From Sulfurovum sp. (GTDB lineage Bacteria > Campylobacterota > Campylobacteria > Campylobacterales > Sulfurovaceae), in NCBI GenBank assembly GCA_027049035.1, contig JALTVI010000066.1, forward strand, positions 124,001-188,000: a stretch of 64,000 nucleotides of DNA, written 5' to 3'. Every line of letters begins with the position of its first letter. Position 1 is the stretch's first letter. Shown here piece by piece: positions 11,493 to 62,095 of this stretch. A model generated the notes under the pieces. It was not told the DNA's origin, searched no databases, and was given only the letters and a program-made list of their open reading frames with translations. The position numbers were made by a program, and so were the translations under genes.

Positions 11493-12157
11493 TTCTCCTT
11501 TGCCGGCGGGCAGACGAAGTGGCGCATATCGATGCCGCCCAGCGTCTCACTCCACCCTATGTAGATATGCTGGTCGCCGCAGTCGACATCCAGAAAACAG
11601 TTGCCAAAGTAGTGTGTCAACAGTTCGCCTATCGACTCCGCTTTTGACAGTGCCGCCACCCAGACGAAACCGATAGGCTTGAGTGAGGGTACCTCCTTGC
11701 TGCTTCGCATCAGATCGCGCAGCTTCGTCTCTATCTCACAGAGACTCTCACAGCCATACTCACCTGCTTCCACCACCGCTTTGAAACTGCCGTTGTCGAG
11801 CACTTTCTTCCACTTGTCCGCCGGGCGTTTTGGTGCATACTTGTAGCTGTCACTCTCTTTGGCGATACAGAGTGCACCCACCTGCTTGAAAGCATTGGGT
11901 GCCTCCTCTACAAGCTCTTGTAGTCTTTCGAAACTGTATTCACTTTGGGTAAAACCCTCATCGTCAAGCACACCCTCTCTTGCCAGCACGGAAGCCGTCG
12001 CTTCATCGACCCTGCTTTTGTGATGTACGACAGCTACGGGAAAGTGCGCCTTCCAGTGCAGATGCGAATCGACATCGAGCAGCTTTAAAAACGCTTCTGT
12101 TTCAAATGCATCCAGGTCGTGTACGGATTTTTCAATATGTGCGATGATCTCCTGCAT
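11489..12157 (-). CDS. Unknown cytoplasmic protein, 222 aa
   Basis: I do not recognise this family. The protein has no signal or membrane segment and is predicted alpha/beta. It contains a His-rich stretch (DVDSHLHWKAHFPVAVVHHKSR) and ends CPPAKEK. Its stop overlaps the DUF2237 start by four bases (ATGA), implying a joint function. The start at ATG 12157 has an AGGAG site immediately upstream. The region upstream holds an unusual inverted repeat. Confidence 0.6.
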   Translation of the reverse strand: MQEIIAHIEKSVHDLDAFETEAFLKLLDVDSHLHWKAHFPVAVVHHKSRVDEATASVLAREGVLDDEGFTQSEYSFERLQELVEEAPNAFKQVGALCIAKESDSYKYAPKRPADKWKKVLDNGSFKAVVEAGEYGCESLCEIETKLRDLMRSSKEVPSLKPIGFVWVAALSKAESIGELLTHYFGNCFLDVDCGDQHIYIGWSETLGGIDMRHFVCPPAKEK

Positions 12158-12206
12158 CCGTGCTCCTTTTTACTCTATTCAACTGTCTGATTGTTTCTTT
12201 ATCAAG

Positions 12207-12289
12207 GTTTCACTCGATGGCGACAAAGATGCACCCAAACCCGTAGGGCGGCTCTGCCGTTTGCATCTGCCAGAGCTATCGAGTGAAAC
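12207..12289. repeat. 83-bp nested inverted repeat (structured element)
   Basis: Perfect 12-bp arms GTTTCACTCGAT (12207-12218) and ATCGAGTGAAAC (12278-12289) enclose a second perfect 7-bp pair, AGATGCA (12227-12233) and TGCATCT (12262-12268). Inside these lies a CGGC-TCT-GCCG hairpin. The whole could fold into one long stem. It sits between cca and the 222-aa gene on a leftward transcript. It could be a palindromic repeat, a short inverted-repeat mobile element or a structured RNA. No attC core sites (RYYYAAC/GTTRRRY) were found at its ends. The rest of 12158-12389 shows no gene. Confidence 0.7.
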
Positions 12290-12389
12290 TGACACTTTAT
12301 TATTAATAATTATGACATATGCGCTTTGGAACAACTTAAGCTGCATCGTTTGTCTGGTAAATCTGTTAAGCGTGTATCGCTACCGCTCA

Positions 12390-13889
12390 TCAGAGGTAGT
12401 GTTCTCTCACATACGCCAGTGCCGCCTCTTTGTCCTCAAAATCACCATCCATCTGTTTGTCATAAAGTGCATCGAGTATGCTTTTGAATTTTGGTGAGGG
12501 TTCCAGGCCCAGTGCAATGAGGTCACGCCCCTGCACCAGAGGCTTCAGCGGTCTGTTACACACCGAAAGCTGTTTCGCCCGCTCAAGCAGCCACTCGCCT
12601 GCTGGGTACTCTCCCCGCTTCGCCTCAGGCGTGGTGCGCCCCAAAAAATCAGCCTTTGCCACCAATATCAGCTCTTCTATATTTACCTTGGTCGCCAGCC
12701 GCCTGATGGCCCCTGCCTTGGCACCCTGCCTGTAGAACTGCGAAGGCTTGAGATGATGTTCCACCAACGGCAGAATGCTTTCGATGAAGTCATGCTCATT
12801 GGTCAGACGGTAGAGGAAAGTACGTGTCGGTTCGATGCCGGCTTTTTCGTGGCGAAGCGATCGAATGCGAGCATTCGAATGAGGAATGAGGAATGAGGAA
12901 TGAGGAATTGTGGTATGTGTTTCTTGCGAAACACTTTTATTAAGCTCTTGCCAGTTTATAACTTTTCCATCTTCGTATTCTATGGTGGTGGTAAGGGGTT
13001 TGCCAAAGTCATGGCCGAGTTCGGCAAAAAGCAGCTTCAATCTCTCCTTCTCCTCCCTGCTCACTACTCCTTGCTCACTACTCACCATTTCCGCCATCAC
13101 ATCGACGCTCATCATCGTATGCACCCACACATCCCCTTCCGGGTGCCATTTGGGATCCTGCGGTACCCCTATGAGTGCGTGCAGTTCGGGAAAGTAGCGT
13201 GCCGTAATGCCCCACTTTCGCATCAGTTTGAACCCGACAGAGGGTTTGGGGGCTTTGAGCAGCAGCTTTTTCCACTCTTCATACACCCGCTCTTTTGGCA
13301 GCTCCTCAAGCATCCCTTCTGCTACCATCTTTTGACACAACACTGCTGTCTCTTCGGCCACTTCGAAATCAAAGCGTGCGGCAAACTGCACGGCACGGTA
13401 GACGCGCAGAGGGTCTTCCACAAAGGTAGCATCGTCGATATGACGCAAGATACCAAACTGAATGTCGTTGAGGCCGCCGTAGGGGTCGAGAATCTCTTGT
13501 GTCAGCAGGTCGTAGCCTATGGCATTGACGGTAAAGTCCCGCCGCTTTGCCGCAGTGGCGAAGGCCAGCCCCCCGTCAGGCACAACCTCGAAGCCCTGGT
13601 GCCCCTTTGCTGTTTTCTTTTCGGTACGGGGAAAAGCGAAATCGTACACTTCTTCCCCCGTATGCAGCTTCAGTACACCAAAACTCCTTCCCACCGCCGA
13701 CACTTTGCCAAAGCATGCAAGCAGCGTTTCAAGCTGCGAAACCTCCTGCAGGCCGTAGACTTCAATGTCAAAATCTTTTGGCTTACTGCCCATCACCATA
13801 TCACGCACCGCCCCGCCGACAAGTACGGCTCTGCCGCCTGCGGCATCTATCGCTTTGGCAGCCTCTTCAAGCAGCGGTGGCAGTTGCAT
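12390..13889 (-). CDS. cca: CCA tRNA nucleotidyltransferase / HD domain protein
   Basis: The N-terminal nucleotidyltransferase domain has VLVGGAVRDMVMGSKPKDFDIEVYG with the catalytic DxD. The tRNA-binding helical region follows (HIDDATFVEDPLRVYRAVQFAARF), then an HD domain (GHDFGKP) and VEHHLKP. The enzyme adds or repairs the 3' CCA of tRNAs. At 499 residues it is longer than usual. Two segments encoded by 7-bp repeat arrays (around 12877-12904 and 13057-13084) are inserted in frame. The larger one lies between the HD residues and RIRSLRHEKAG and adds roughly 30 residues. The reading frame remains open. Confidence 0.9.
   Translation of the reverse strand: MQLPPLLEEAAKAIDAAGGRAVLVGGAVRDMVMGSKPKDFDIEVYGLQEVSQLETLLACFGKVSAVGRSFGVLKLHTGEEVYDFAFPRTEKKTAKGHQGFEVVPDGGLAFATAAKRRDFTVNAIGYDLLTQEILDPYGGLNDIQFGILRHIDDATFVEDPLRVYRAVQFAARFDFEVAEETAVLCQKMVAEGMLEELPKERVYEEWKKLLLKAPKPSVGFKLMRKWGITARYFPELHALIGVPQDPKWHPEGDVWVHTMMSVDVMAEMVSSEQGVVSREEKERLKLLFAELGHDFGKPLTTTIEYEDGKVINWQELNKSVSQETHTTIPHSSFLIPHSNARIRSLRHEKAGIEPTRTFLYRLTNEHDFIESILPLVEHHLKPSQFYRQGAKAGAIRRLATKVNIEELILVAKADFLGRTTPEAKRGEYPAGEWLLERAKQLSVCNRPLKPLVQGRDLIALGLEPSPKFKSILDALYDKQMDGDFEDKEAALAYVREHYL
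12877..12904. repeat. Heptamer array (GAATGAG)x4 inside cca
   Basis: Four perfect tandem copies of GAATGAG lie on the plus strand. They directly adjoin a perfect palindrome TCGAATGC-GA-GCATTCGA (12861-12878). On the cca strand they encode the peptide PHSSFLIPH. A second hairpin, GTGTTTC-TTGC-GAAACAC, follows shortly after. The total insertion preserves the cca frame. Confidence 0.85.
13057..13084. repeat. Degenerate heptamer array inside cca
   Basis: Four 7-base units (CTGCTCA, CTACTCC, TTGCTCA, CTACTCA) are in tandem, and together they read as a 14-bp direct repeat. In cca they encode part of VSSEQGVVSREE, upstream of the HD motif. The pattern resembles the other 7-bp arrays in the window but has diverged. 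Confidence 0.65.
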
Positions 13890-13895
13890 GATGGT

Positions 13896-14423
13896 CTATC
13901 GTCCGTAGTAGGAGATAATGGAGGCTTTGCCAATGGTATGCGCGTTGATCATAAACCCCGCCACCGGCGCTTTCGTTTTGGGTGTTATGTCAAGTTTGGG
14001 CACATCGAGCGCATATACGGTAAAGACGTAGCGGTGCGGCTTGTCGCCTTTTGGCGGACAGGCACCGCCAAAGCCCTCTATACCGTAGTCGTTTGACACT
14101 TCTACCACACCCTTTGGCATCATCTTGCCAGACGCGCCGGCCGGAAGCTTGTTAACATCGGCGGGAATATTGACGACCACCCAGTGCCACCAGCCGCTGC
14201 CCGTGGGTGCATCGGGGTCGTACACTGTCACGGCAAAACTCTTCGTGCCCTTTGGTGCATCTTTCCAGCTGAGTTCGGGGGACACATTCTGCCCGTTGCA
14301 CCCAAAGCCCTTGAACTCCTGCGTTTTGGTCAGCTGCCCTTTGATATCGCTGCTTGTAAGGGTAAAGTTGCCCGCTACGGCCATCACACCGGAGAGTACC
14401 AAAGAGGTCAAAATACGTTTCAT
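13896..14423 (-). CDS. YbhB/YbcL-type PEBP family protein, secreted
   Basis: This is a phosphatidylethanolamine-binding-protein-like domain with YDPDAPTGSGWWHWVVVNIP, the ligand-pocket signature, and the later FGGACPPKGDKPHRYVFTVYALD. The start at 14423 (MKRILTSLVLSGVMAVAG) is chosen because an AAGGAG site lies just upstream and it gives a clear signal peptide; the frame is open further upstream to 14510. Bacterial members are periplasmic or cytoplasmic proteins without a defined enzyme activity. It lies downstream of the HAD phosphatase gene on the same strand. Confidence 0.9.
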   Translation of the reverse strand: MKRILTSLVLSGVMAVAGNFTLTSSDIKGQLTKTQEFKGFGCNGQNVSPELSWKDAPKGTKSFAVTVYDPDAPTGSGWWHWVVVNIPADVNKLPAGASGKMMPKGVVEVSNDYGIEGFGGACPPKGDKPHRYVFTVYALDVPKLDITPKTKAPVAGFMINAHTIGKASIISYYGR

Positions 14424-31866: not shown

Positions 31867-31884
31867 CGCTTATCCTTCACATCA

Positions 31885-31912
31885 ATAAAAAGGCTTTTCA
31901 GAATGAAAAGCC
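31885..31912 (-). terminator. Rho-independent terminator after gltB
   Basis: On the minus strand GGCTTTTC-ATTCT-GAAAAGCC forms a perfect 8-bp stem followed by TTTTTATT. It lies about 60 bases after the gltB stop, beyond the heptamer array, and before the inositol-phosphatase gene. Confidence 0.8.
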
Positions 31913-31920
31913 AACCAAAA

Positions 31921-31969
31921 CTCTTCACTCTTCACTATTCACTCTTCACTATCATCGCAAAGCGATGAT
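31921..31969. repeat. Heptamer array (CTCTTCA)x4 plus hairpin after gltB
   Basis: Four 7-base units (CTCTTCA, CTCTTCA, CTATTCA, CTCTTCA) occupy 31921-31948. They adjoin a perfect 8-bp hairpin ATCATCGC-AAA-GCGATGAT (31951-31969), which begins two bases after the gltB stop. Read along gltB the units are AGTGAAG-like. The hairpin-plus-heptamer layout matches the insertion inside cca. Confidence 0.85.
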
Positions 31970-31971
31970 AA

Positions 31972-43676: not shown

Positions 43677-43678
43677 GA

Positions 43679-43713
43679 AATCAAGATCCCGCATCAAGTG
43701 CAAGATGACAAAA
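43679..43713. repeat. Dispersed palindromic element (half-decayed copy)
   Basis: ATCAAGATCCCGCATCAAG begins a sequence nearly identical to those at 50220 and 63118. Here the right arm has drifted (TGCAAGATGAC), so the stem is weakened. Confidence 0.7.
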
Positions 43714-49652: not shown

Positions 49653-50075
49653 ATGAAACGTACCATCGTTTACGCCATAACCCTCTTGACTCTCTTTGCC
49701 CAAACGACCAATGCCGCTCCGGCAGACCTGAACGAACTTCAGGGTGACTGGCACCTGCGTGAACTCGACGGTTACGAAGTACGCAAAGCACGCGCCATTT
49801 TGGACTTCGAACCCTCCAAAATGGTCATCGACGGCTTCGATGCCTGCAACCGCATCAACGGCAAACTGATCAAAAAAGCCGACGGCACCTACACCAGCCG
49901 ACTTCGCACCACCCGTATGGCTTGCCGAGGCAACCTCTTCAGCTTCGTCAGCCAACGCCTGCACCAGGCCATCGACGAAGGCTTCACCGTTGAAAAGGCC
50001 ACACGCCACGGCATTGACGGCATACTGCTCAAAAGCAAATCACATGAACTCTTTTTCAAGCGAATGGGAGAATAA
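49653..50075 (+). CDS. Secreted META/HslJ-like domain protein
   Basis: A signal peptide (MKRTIVYAITLLTLFAQTTNA) precedes one META domain: LQGDWHLRELDGYEV, FDACNRINGKLIKK, and TRMACRG. This is the pattern of HslJ-like outer-membrane or periplasmic proteins linked with stress resistance. The gene stands alone, starting at ATG 49653. A perfect 8-copy heptamer array begins at the base after its stop. Confidence 0.82.
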   Translation: MKRTIVYAITLLTLFAQTTNAAPADLNELQGDWHLRELDGYEVRKARAILDFEPSKMVIDGFDACNRINGKLIKKADGTYTSRLRTTRMACRGNLFSFVSQRLHQAIDEGFTVEKATRHGIDGILLKSKSHELFFKRMGE

Positions 50076-50131
50076 GAAGGTAGAAGGTAGAAGGTAGAAG
50101 GTAGAAGGTAGAAGGTAGAAGGTAGAAGGTA
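50076..50131. repeat. Heptamer array (GAAGGTA)x8
   Basis: Eight perfect tandem copies of GAAGGTA (56 bases) begin immediately after the TAA of the META-domain gene. Confidence 0.95.
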
Positions 50132-50167
50132 GAAATTTTTCATGGTTGGATTAAAGTGAAGCTTAAA
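50132..50167. repeat. Conserved 36-bp block following heptamers (copy A)
   Basis: The block begins GAAATTTTTCATGGTTGG and ends AAGCTTAAA. It matches blocks at 61953-61987 and 62940-62975, each of which also directly follows a heptamer array. Confidence 0.8.
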
Positions 50168-50170
50168 CTT

Positions 50171-50253
50171 CGTCATTCCTGGCTTGACCAGGAATCTTTG
50201 TATTCATCACCCAAACAACATCAAGATCCCGCATCAAGTGCGGGACGACAGAT
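50171..50253. repeat. Pair of dispersed palindromic repeats
   Basis: The first is CGTCATTCCTGG-CTTGA-CCAGGAAT (stem 50175-50182 with 50188-50195). The second is TCCCGCA-TCAAG-TGCGGGA (50227-50245). The same two elements, in the same order, occur at 63070-63092 and 63118-63146. They resemble small intergenic palindromic repeats common in proteobacteria. Confidence 0.8.
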
Positions 50254-61193: not shown

Positions 61194-61889
61194 ATGTTAA
61201 AATACTGTATGGGAATAAAACTATTACTTCTGCTGTCGGCACCGTTTCTGCTCCATGCCGCCAATCTATTTATTATCACCGACAAAAAGGGCAAAGTCGT
61301 CGAAGAGAAGCATCTTAAAAAGTGCAACAATGCCTGCCTGAACCAGGATGCAAGAGAGTATTCACTGCAGGCTATCTACGATGCGCTGCACCGCGAAGAG
61401 AACCTTGCAAGAGCAGCACAGATGGCACGGGAAGCGGCTGAACGCATCGCAAAGGCGAGTACTGCTGCCAAGAAAAAGGGAAAGACATACCACCTCACTT
61501 CTGCCGACCGCGAAGCGCTCCTTCGCTACGCCAAATATTTCAAGGGCGGCAAGTATGTCTGGGGCGGTACGACACCTGAGGGCTTCGACTGCTCAGGGTA
61601 CGTACAGTACCTTTTCAAAAAGAACGGTGTCAACCTCCCCCGCACCGCCTGGGCACAATCGAAAAAGGGGATACCTGTCGATCTTGACAACCTGCAAAAA
61701 GGCGACCTGCTCTTCTTCCTGACCGACAAAAAACGCGGCATTCCCGTCACCCATGTGGGTATCTACCTTGGCAACGGCAAGTTCATCCATGCCGCTTCCA
61801 AGAAACAGGGCATTATCATCTCTCCCATCACACACGGCCACTATCGTGACTGCTTCGTTTCAGCGAGGAGAGTGCTGAAAAGGGGTTAA
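61194..61889 (+). CDS. NlpC/P60 family peptidoglycan endopeptidase
   Basis: A signal peptide (MGIKLLLLLSAPFLLHA, from the second ATG at 61209) is followed by a short coiled coil (about 55-95) and an NlpC/P60 domain with FDCSGYVQYLF (Cys133), THVGIYLGNG (His187) and FIHAAS (His199). It cleaves peptidoglycan stem peptides in the periplasm. Neither candidate start has a clear ribosome site. The stop TAA lies inside the first unit of a GGGTTAA array. Confidence 0.9.
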   Translation: MLKYCMGIKLLLLLSAPFLLHAANLFIITDKKGKVVEEKHLKKCNNACLNQDAREYSLQAIYDALHREENLARAAQMAREAAERIAKASTAAKKKGKTYHLTSADREALLRYAKYFKGGKYVWGGTTPEGFDCSGYVQYLFKKNGVNLPRTAWAQSKKGIPVDLDNLQKGDLLFFLTDKKRGIPVTHVGIYLGNGKFIHAASKKQGIIISPITHGHYRDCFVSARRVLKRG

Positions 61890-61950
61890 GGGTTAAGTTA
61901 AGGGTTAAGGGTTAAGGGTTAAGGGTTAAGGGTTAAGGGTTAAGGGTTAA
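61883..61950. repeat. Heptamer array (GGGTTAA)x9 with one short unit
   Basis: Nine full copies of GGGTTAA and one 5-base GTTAA unit (third position) overlap and follow the stop of the NlpC/P60 gene; the TAA of the first unit is the stop codon. Confidence 0.95.
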
Positions 61951-61952
61951 GG

Positions 61953-61987
61953 GAATTTTGCATTGTTTGGTTAATGAAAAGCTTAAA
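61953..61987. repeat. Conserved 36-bp block (copy B)
   Basis: GAATTTTGCATTGTTTGG to AAGCTTAAA, directly after the GGGTTAA array, aligned with copies A and C. A GTGAGGA-TTCA-TCCTCAC hairpin follows at 61998-62015. The rest of 61890-62095 shows no gene. Confidence 0.78.
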
Positions 61988-62095
61988 GAGACAGGAAGTG
62001 AGGATTCATCCTCACCCACGTTGAAAATTAGTAGAAAATATCGATAACCACAGTAGCATTCACCAACCGGAATCAAAATCCAAAAAGAGGCTAAC

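Follow-up and report, generated by a model that had tools for sequence, protein, structure and literature searches.

The locus considered here raises the question of how the gene for a CCA-adding enzyme came to contain tandem seven-nucleotide repeats within its reading frame, and of what kind of sequence these repeats belong to. The window, i.e., the whole 64,000-nucleotide stretch of Sulfurovum sp. DNA that was analyzed, codes on its reverse strand (12390-13889, as for all features of the gene given below) for a 499-residue cca-type tRNA nucleotidyltransferase/poly(A) polymerase with a C-terminal HD domain. The protein matches the Pfam families PolyA_pol, PolyA_pol_RNAbd and HD, its top NCBIfam match is the CCA addition/repair protein (with a score under that family's cut-off), and the top Foldseek matches of its predicted structure are the CCA-adding enzymes 3h38 and 1miv. 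The closest named genes are those of Sulfurovum sp. MAGs, at 88-89% identity. In the context of the HD motif (13008-13013) the window protein reads GHDFGK, whereas every aligned relative has CHDFGK or CHDLGK. With a probability of roughly 0.8, we consider the larger insert of this enzyme to be a translated copy, in a disordered loop, of an interspersed non-coding repeat of the Sulfurovaceae (termed type A), placed in a turn on the surface of the HD domain.

Heptamer arrays and the insert in cca

The initial annotation described two heptamer arrays within cca, the larger of which was thought to add, with its flanking hairpins, about 30 residues between the HD motif and RIRSLRHEKAG while keeping the frame. 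Both arrays (12877-12908 and 13053-13083) stand out from shuffled sequence: the window contains four period-7 runs of at least 11 matches, versus none in 30 order-3 Markov shuffles. Array 1 comprises 4.6 copies of GAATGAG, all units being identical (100% matches by TRF); on the coding strand it reads (TTCCTCA)n and is translated as PHSSFLI. Array 2 is weaker, with a period of 14 (2 x 7; 2.2 copies, 94% matches by TRF) and without a leader, and occupies a second length-variable loop (residues ~269-279) that is ~10 residues longer in the window protein than in the shortest relatives. The frame is unbroken across the 499 codons, arrays included.

Alignment of orthologues sets the size of the larger insert: TTTIEYEDGKVINWQELNKSVSQETHTTIPHSSFLIPHSNARIRSLRHE, the stretch linking the HD motif to the R-I-R residues, is ~32 residues longer than the short turn found in relatives outside one clade. 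The insert proper (residues ~309-340, 12870-12965) includes a type A leader at 12899-12943, composed of AATAAAAG, a 7-bp hairpin (GTGTTTC-GCAA-GAAACAC, 12919-12936), CATACCACAA and the start of array 1. At the far end of the array lies an 8-bp terminal inverted repeat, TCGAATGC-TC-GCATTCGA (12861-12878). Both hairpins of the initial annotation are present (z = -3.6 for the single-strand fold), but they are not wholly part of the insert: the arm at 12861-12868 encodes part of the conserved R-I-R and is therefore host sequence, such that only its inverted copy at 12871-12878 belongs to the insert. The linker part KVINWQELN does not belong to the element, and this was counted against a copy of the element as the source. 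The flanks and empty sites of relatives are too diverged at the DNA level to fix the exact borders or a target-site duplication.

The AlphaFold2 model of the protein, built with 33 rows from its own locus, has a mean pLDDT of 90.7. The only segments of at least three residues that fall below a pLDDT of 50 in the 499-residue model are 272-277 and 319-336, which correspond to the two arrays. The larger insert lengthens the turn of a small beta-hairpin beside the HD motif and is predicted to form a disordered surface loop.

The dispersed type A element

The sequence in cca is one member of a dispersed family. A first covariance model (R1) was built from nine copies, none of them from cca and seven from one relative (G015). 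Modelling was begun with 3-nt-loop copies alone and enlarged by search, because mixed 3- and 4-nt loops made MAFFT shift the 5' arm by one column. The top R1 site in the window is the cca insert (36.7 bits, E = 4.8e-6; owing to a short calibration, this and the other covariance-model E-values are rough). A second, intergenic copy lies on the forward strand at 31884-31970, with its leader at 31884-31929 (model match from 31882), its array at 31920-31950 and an inverted repeat, TATCATCGC-AAA-GCGATGATA, at 31950-31970 (E = 0.0021 with R1, and 4.4e-5 with an enlarged model, R2, over 1.47 Mb). R2 was based on 29 copies, again with none from cca. In its leader stem 97.5% of the cells are paired and 36 cells are changed on both sides, compared to 78% and 11 in shuffles and at most 51% paired in slid controls, although the alignment was fitted to the structure and these counts therefore lean towards it. 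By R2, the genome contains 93 copies, including that in cca (E = 3.8e-8), which belongs to the same family as ~92 others.

The type A leader consists of AATAAAAGC, a variable 7-bp stem, a loop of 3-6 nt and GCATACC(A/G)A(A/C)A, followed by CTATTCA-like units. The whole element thus consists of ~45 nt of leader, which contains a covarying 7-bp hairpin (AATAAAAGC...GCATACCA), and of a heptamer array whose end carries an inverted repeat. It occurs in 24 of 37 genomes of the genus (the present one included) and in none of the 23 genomes of other families in the set. Across 199 genomes sampled more widely from the order, most matches come from this genus and a sister genus, and four other genomes have one match each. 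An Rfam scan of 12100-14000 gave no known RNA family, its lone match being a chance one (score 23.8; gathering score 83). We found no description of such a hairpin-heptamer element in the open-licence papers that were searched, which is weak evidence of absence.

Most copies are intergenic, and their positions tend to be kept. Of 35 copies in relatives that could be located by their flanks in the sampled parts of this genome, 33 have a counterpart within 900 nt at the corresponding place, versus 38 of 123 random positions, in a sample partly selected around copies, a bias which the random control shares; most copies are therefore old and were inherited in place. Such retention could reflect function rather than passive persistence. 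A possible, though not probable, alternative is accordingly that type A is a functional cis-acting RNA or DNA structure kept at defined loci, and that the cca copy is retained for its structure and not for its peptide. The compensatory changes in the stem and the conserved positions are consistent with this, as are inverted repeats overlapping the start codon or ribosome site of the gene that follows. The cca element is also better conserved than its surroundings (94% identity between the window and L111, versus 86% for the whole gene), which exceeds the conservation expected of a neutral passenger and could be due to gene conversion or to constraint at the DNA level. On the other hand, orientation relative to genes shows no preference (both neighbors opposite in 41 cases, both the same in 32), copies within genes lack a start codon that they could control, and paired stems can be maintained by template switching alone (PMC8794818). 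The kept positions and the identity of the cca element nevertheless leave room for a nucleic-acid function as well as for homogenization by template switching or conversion. Two more specific roles were dropped. The reverse strand of the element offers a hairpin followed by TTTTATT, yet the lack of preference in gene orientation argues against a terminator or insulator; for the ACCA behind the hairpin as a mimic of the tRNA end, tied to the Cca enzyme, nothing supporting was found.

Less probable still is that the arrays are ordinary slipped heptamer microsatellites born de novo in cca, their likeness to sequences elsewhere being due to similar units throughout the genome. Heptamers are the commonest long class of simple repeats in many bacteria (cited in PMC4679880 and PMC4692102), and those of Calothrix/Nostoc, Xanthomonas (GGGAATC) and Beggiatoaceae (TAACTGA) are mostly intergenic, lie between the same genes and vary in length and sequence (PMC4692102, PMC4679880). 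Type A likewise has tandem seven-nucleotide units beyond chance, mostly between genes. In a 1.47-Mb sample from this genome and two relatives, partly selected around known copies, there are 126 period-7 arrays, whereas no other period between 4 and 15, multiples of 7 aside, reaches more than eight; 103 of these arrays lack G on one strand, compared to 31% of random heptamers. The leaderless array 2 may indeed be a plain microsatellite, and in L006 and L116 the site of array 1 carries other heptamers without a leader. For array 1 itself the explanation is disfavored, since R1, which covers the array start only, recognizes the leader hairpin with ATACCA, a part located beyond the array. In type A, a covarying hairpin leader opens the array and an inverted repeat with the host sequence often closes it; we found neither feature described for the heptanucleotide repeats in those two reports.

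Translated copies and the fate of the insert

Inspection of all 93 copies in the genome revealed five that are read in frame in identified genes: the one in cca, two in murD (one after the start codon and one internal), one in anmK and one in lnt. In G035, an additional in-frame copy occurs in a gene for an sdhA/frdA-like flavoprotein. At the murD, anmK and lnt sites, element-free relatives have short loops, and further relatives have different arrays, or palindromic repeats. Type A has two open sense frames out of three, and both are used, one in cca and lnt and the other in murD and anmK (for example, NKSVSQETHT in cca and KASQSDAY in murD), and there is therefore no single conserved peptide. 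The anmK copies of G000 and G002 differ by a compensatory pair, the stem GCATCGC/GCGATGC becoming GCATTGC/GCAATGC, and the peptide changes from ASPRDAYQ to ALRSNANQ while the stem stays paired. The loops that host type A also carry other in-frame dispersed palindromes in other Sulfurovum species, e.g., CTTCGACAGGCTCAG...CTGAGCCTGTCGAAG, as seen in L258 and L259 (anmK), L277 and L281 (lnt), and L211 and L217 (murD).

The history of the cca site was followed in an alignment of orthologues from 20 genomes and 35 named records. As the initial annotation had expected, the enzymes outside one Sulfurovum clade have a turn of 4-5 residues at this place (e.g., TTTVDDEGNIRSIGHE), and all insert-bearing rows fall within a single 13-row clade (support 100/95). 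Relatives that conserve the insert residues and lack the DNA repeat were looked for, and none was found in this alignment. Within the clade, the insert is degenerate in L004 and L005, is missing in L008, and is reduced in L117 to AATAAAAGTGTTTC, most of the element having been deleted in frame, and L006 and L116 carry different, leaderless heptamers. In L114 the array contains an additional 33 nt with the frame kept. Both one old gain followed by decay and loss, and several gains at one site, fit this distribution. According to our preferred reading, a translated type A copy, the element would have entered cca once in the ancestor of the clade, or more than once, and would have been tolerated owing to its two open sense frames out of three and to its location in a turn. 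Copies would then have decayed, switched heptamer or been lost in some lineages, with changes in the array arising by replication slippage. A strict tie between the number of elements in a genome and the presence of the insert was rejected: G001, G019 and G036 have 36-46 copies yet a short turn in Cca, and G014 has three copies yet a degenerate insert.

That the insert was recruited for a function of the protein, such as an extra contact with tRNA or regulation of the HD domain, seems very improbable. It is kept in several species of the clade and is well conserved between the closest two, but heptamer, stem and peptide all differ among species at the same site, most of it was deleted in L117 and none is present in L008, the segment is predicted to be disordered, and the same kind of insert is found in unrelated enzymes. 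The model and the in-frame losses instead suggest that the enzyme tolerates the loop, which is probably near-neutral for catalysis.

To our knowledge, few bacterial repeat families are translated in frame within housekeeping enzymes. In the present case, a single DNA element can be traced between genes and in at least four enzymes, together with element-free, degenerate and deleted forms, such that the relatives record how it emerges and decays as protein sequence. The cca copy illustrates how genome clutter can turn into part of a protein.

Terminal repeats, possible origins and related elements

A perfect inverted repeat of at least 7 bp is present at the array end in 39% of 97 copies, versus 1.3% of random windows from the same loci; in 39 copies that were not used to form the idea the values are 38.5% and 1.7%, i.e., an enrichment of ~20-30 fold. 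In cca, the 3' arm consists of R-I-R codons that element-free relatives also encode, and the 5' arm is therefore the new part. In murD, the PF and TVWI codons form the 3' arm of the repeat, and synonymous differences of the host recur in the 5' arm: the arm pair is CCTTTC/GAAAGG in G014, CCTTTT/AAAAGG in G015, and ACGGTTTGGAT with ATCCAAACCGT in G000. Upstream of murD, an array at the same place in three species has three different terminal repeats, with none in a fourth.

A host arm joined to its inverted copy is the pattern that short-range template switching during replication would produce. Quasipalindrome mutations create or complete a hairpin by copying neighboring sequence in inverted orientation (PMC8794818, PMC7202029); type A shares an arm that is the inverted copy of adjacent ancestral sequence, but its palindrome terminates a repeat array, as seen in roughly two fifths of the copies. 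The pattern could equally result from selection for a hairpin, although a purely regulatory cause is less likely given the copies within cca and murD. Where orthologous genes begin, the terminal repeats vary among species and may span the ribosome site or the start codon, as at L194:11058 (upstream of a gene starting MKTLILHGWG), L208:7085, L190:16775, L206:10536 and L040:16237; intergenic copies could therefore affect translation.

A more speculative proposal, which we hold to be rather doubtful, is that type A represents an undescribed class of interspersed element that is coupled to replication and needs no transposase: the hairpin leader would prime repeated copying of a seven-nucleotide template, and a snap-back copy of the host strand would end synthesis. 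If so, every copy would have a locus-specific palindrome, and copies arising within genes would be translated. The combination of array, covarying leader and host-templated palindrome makes the long-standing question of why repeats of seven nucleotides are so common in many bacteria testable in one genus. No transposition or insertion event of type A was observed. Mobilization as a non-autonomous IS200/IS605 or REP/RAYT element, with a Y1 transposase recognizing the leader hairpin, is hardly credible: small high-copy hairpins with a fixed flank do resemble REP and IS605 ends, but the presence of the transposase is independent of copy number (G019 has 36 copies and no Y1, G018 has five Y1 and no copies), and the stem sequence is variable, with no GTAG/CGTC tag at its foot.

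Type A shares with REP/RAYT systems its small size, high copy number and mostly extragenic location, whereas its consensus (AATAAAAGC-stem-GCATACC) has a variable stem in place of a conserved palindrome, and G020, like G019, has type A without a Y1_Tnp match, G020 being only 75% complete. Unlike in MITEs, the start (AATAAAAGC) and end of type A are unrelated and its terminal inverted repeat differs at every locus. Borg tandem repeats are found between genes and in ORFs, where they yield disordered segments (PMC9879509); in contrast to type A, however, they are perfect, reside on archaeal extrachromosomal elements and have no described hairpin leader. The initial annotation had also drawn a comparison with the Rickettsia palindromic elements, which are ~150 bp long, each encode a conserved peptide and lie in ORFs in about half of the cases (PMC10969869). 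The comparison holds for in-frame insertion of a repeat family in unrelated genes (cca, murD, anmK and lnt, and sdhA/frdA-like in G035) whose proteins tolerate it, but not for membership. Rather than a ~150-bp palindrome, type A is a leader of ~45 nt with a 7-bp hairpin, an array and a separate terminal hairpin; it has no conserved peptide, uses two frames, has 5 of 93 copies translated, is mostly intergenic, and belongs to another phylum, where it is restricted to the Sulfurovaceae. By this comparison the cca insert is an analogue of those elements and not one of them, being set apart by size, anatomy and host range.

Further repeats and arrangements were noted. Type A elements are frequent as 5'-5' pairs (e.g., L054:2495-/2536+ and G000:C72 61743-/61784+), and a third leader, TTCGGTTGCTCATTACTCATTACTC..., stands head to head with type A at L189:14990, L194:11058, L199:6448, L208:6478 and other sites. 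A second class of heptamer arrays, termed type B, which are long, perfect and joined to a conserved tail of ~35 nt (AATTTTGCATGGTTTGGTTGAAGTGAAGCTTAA-like), occurs in the window at 50075-50180 and 61883-61990 (+), directly after the stop codon of the upstream gene, and elsewhere at L033:4243, L093:14263, L094:6490, L099:977, L101:11043, L102:15870 and L110:15205. Palindromes of the ATCAAGATCCCGCATCAAGTGCGGGATGAC type adjoin heptamer arrays at 43678-43710 and 50174-50250 of the window. Downstream of cca, at 12206-12292, lies an imperfect inverted repeat, GGTTTCACTCGATGGC...GAGCTATCGAGTGAAAC, pieces of which recur beside type A copies (L110 ~18480, L246 ~5800) and which constitutes another dispersed repeat. 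Finally, a module of 33-36 nt, CCCCAAGGGCACTTGTC.CTTC.GTCGGGCGC, is found within heptamer arrays at L114:3001-4530 (cca, in frame) and in the L208:14875-14918 region, and the first variable loop of the L135 cca holds a palindrome related to this module.
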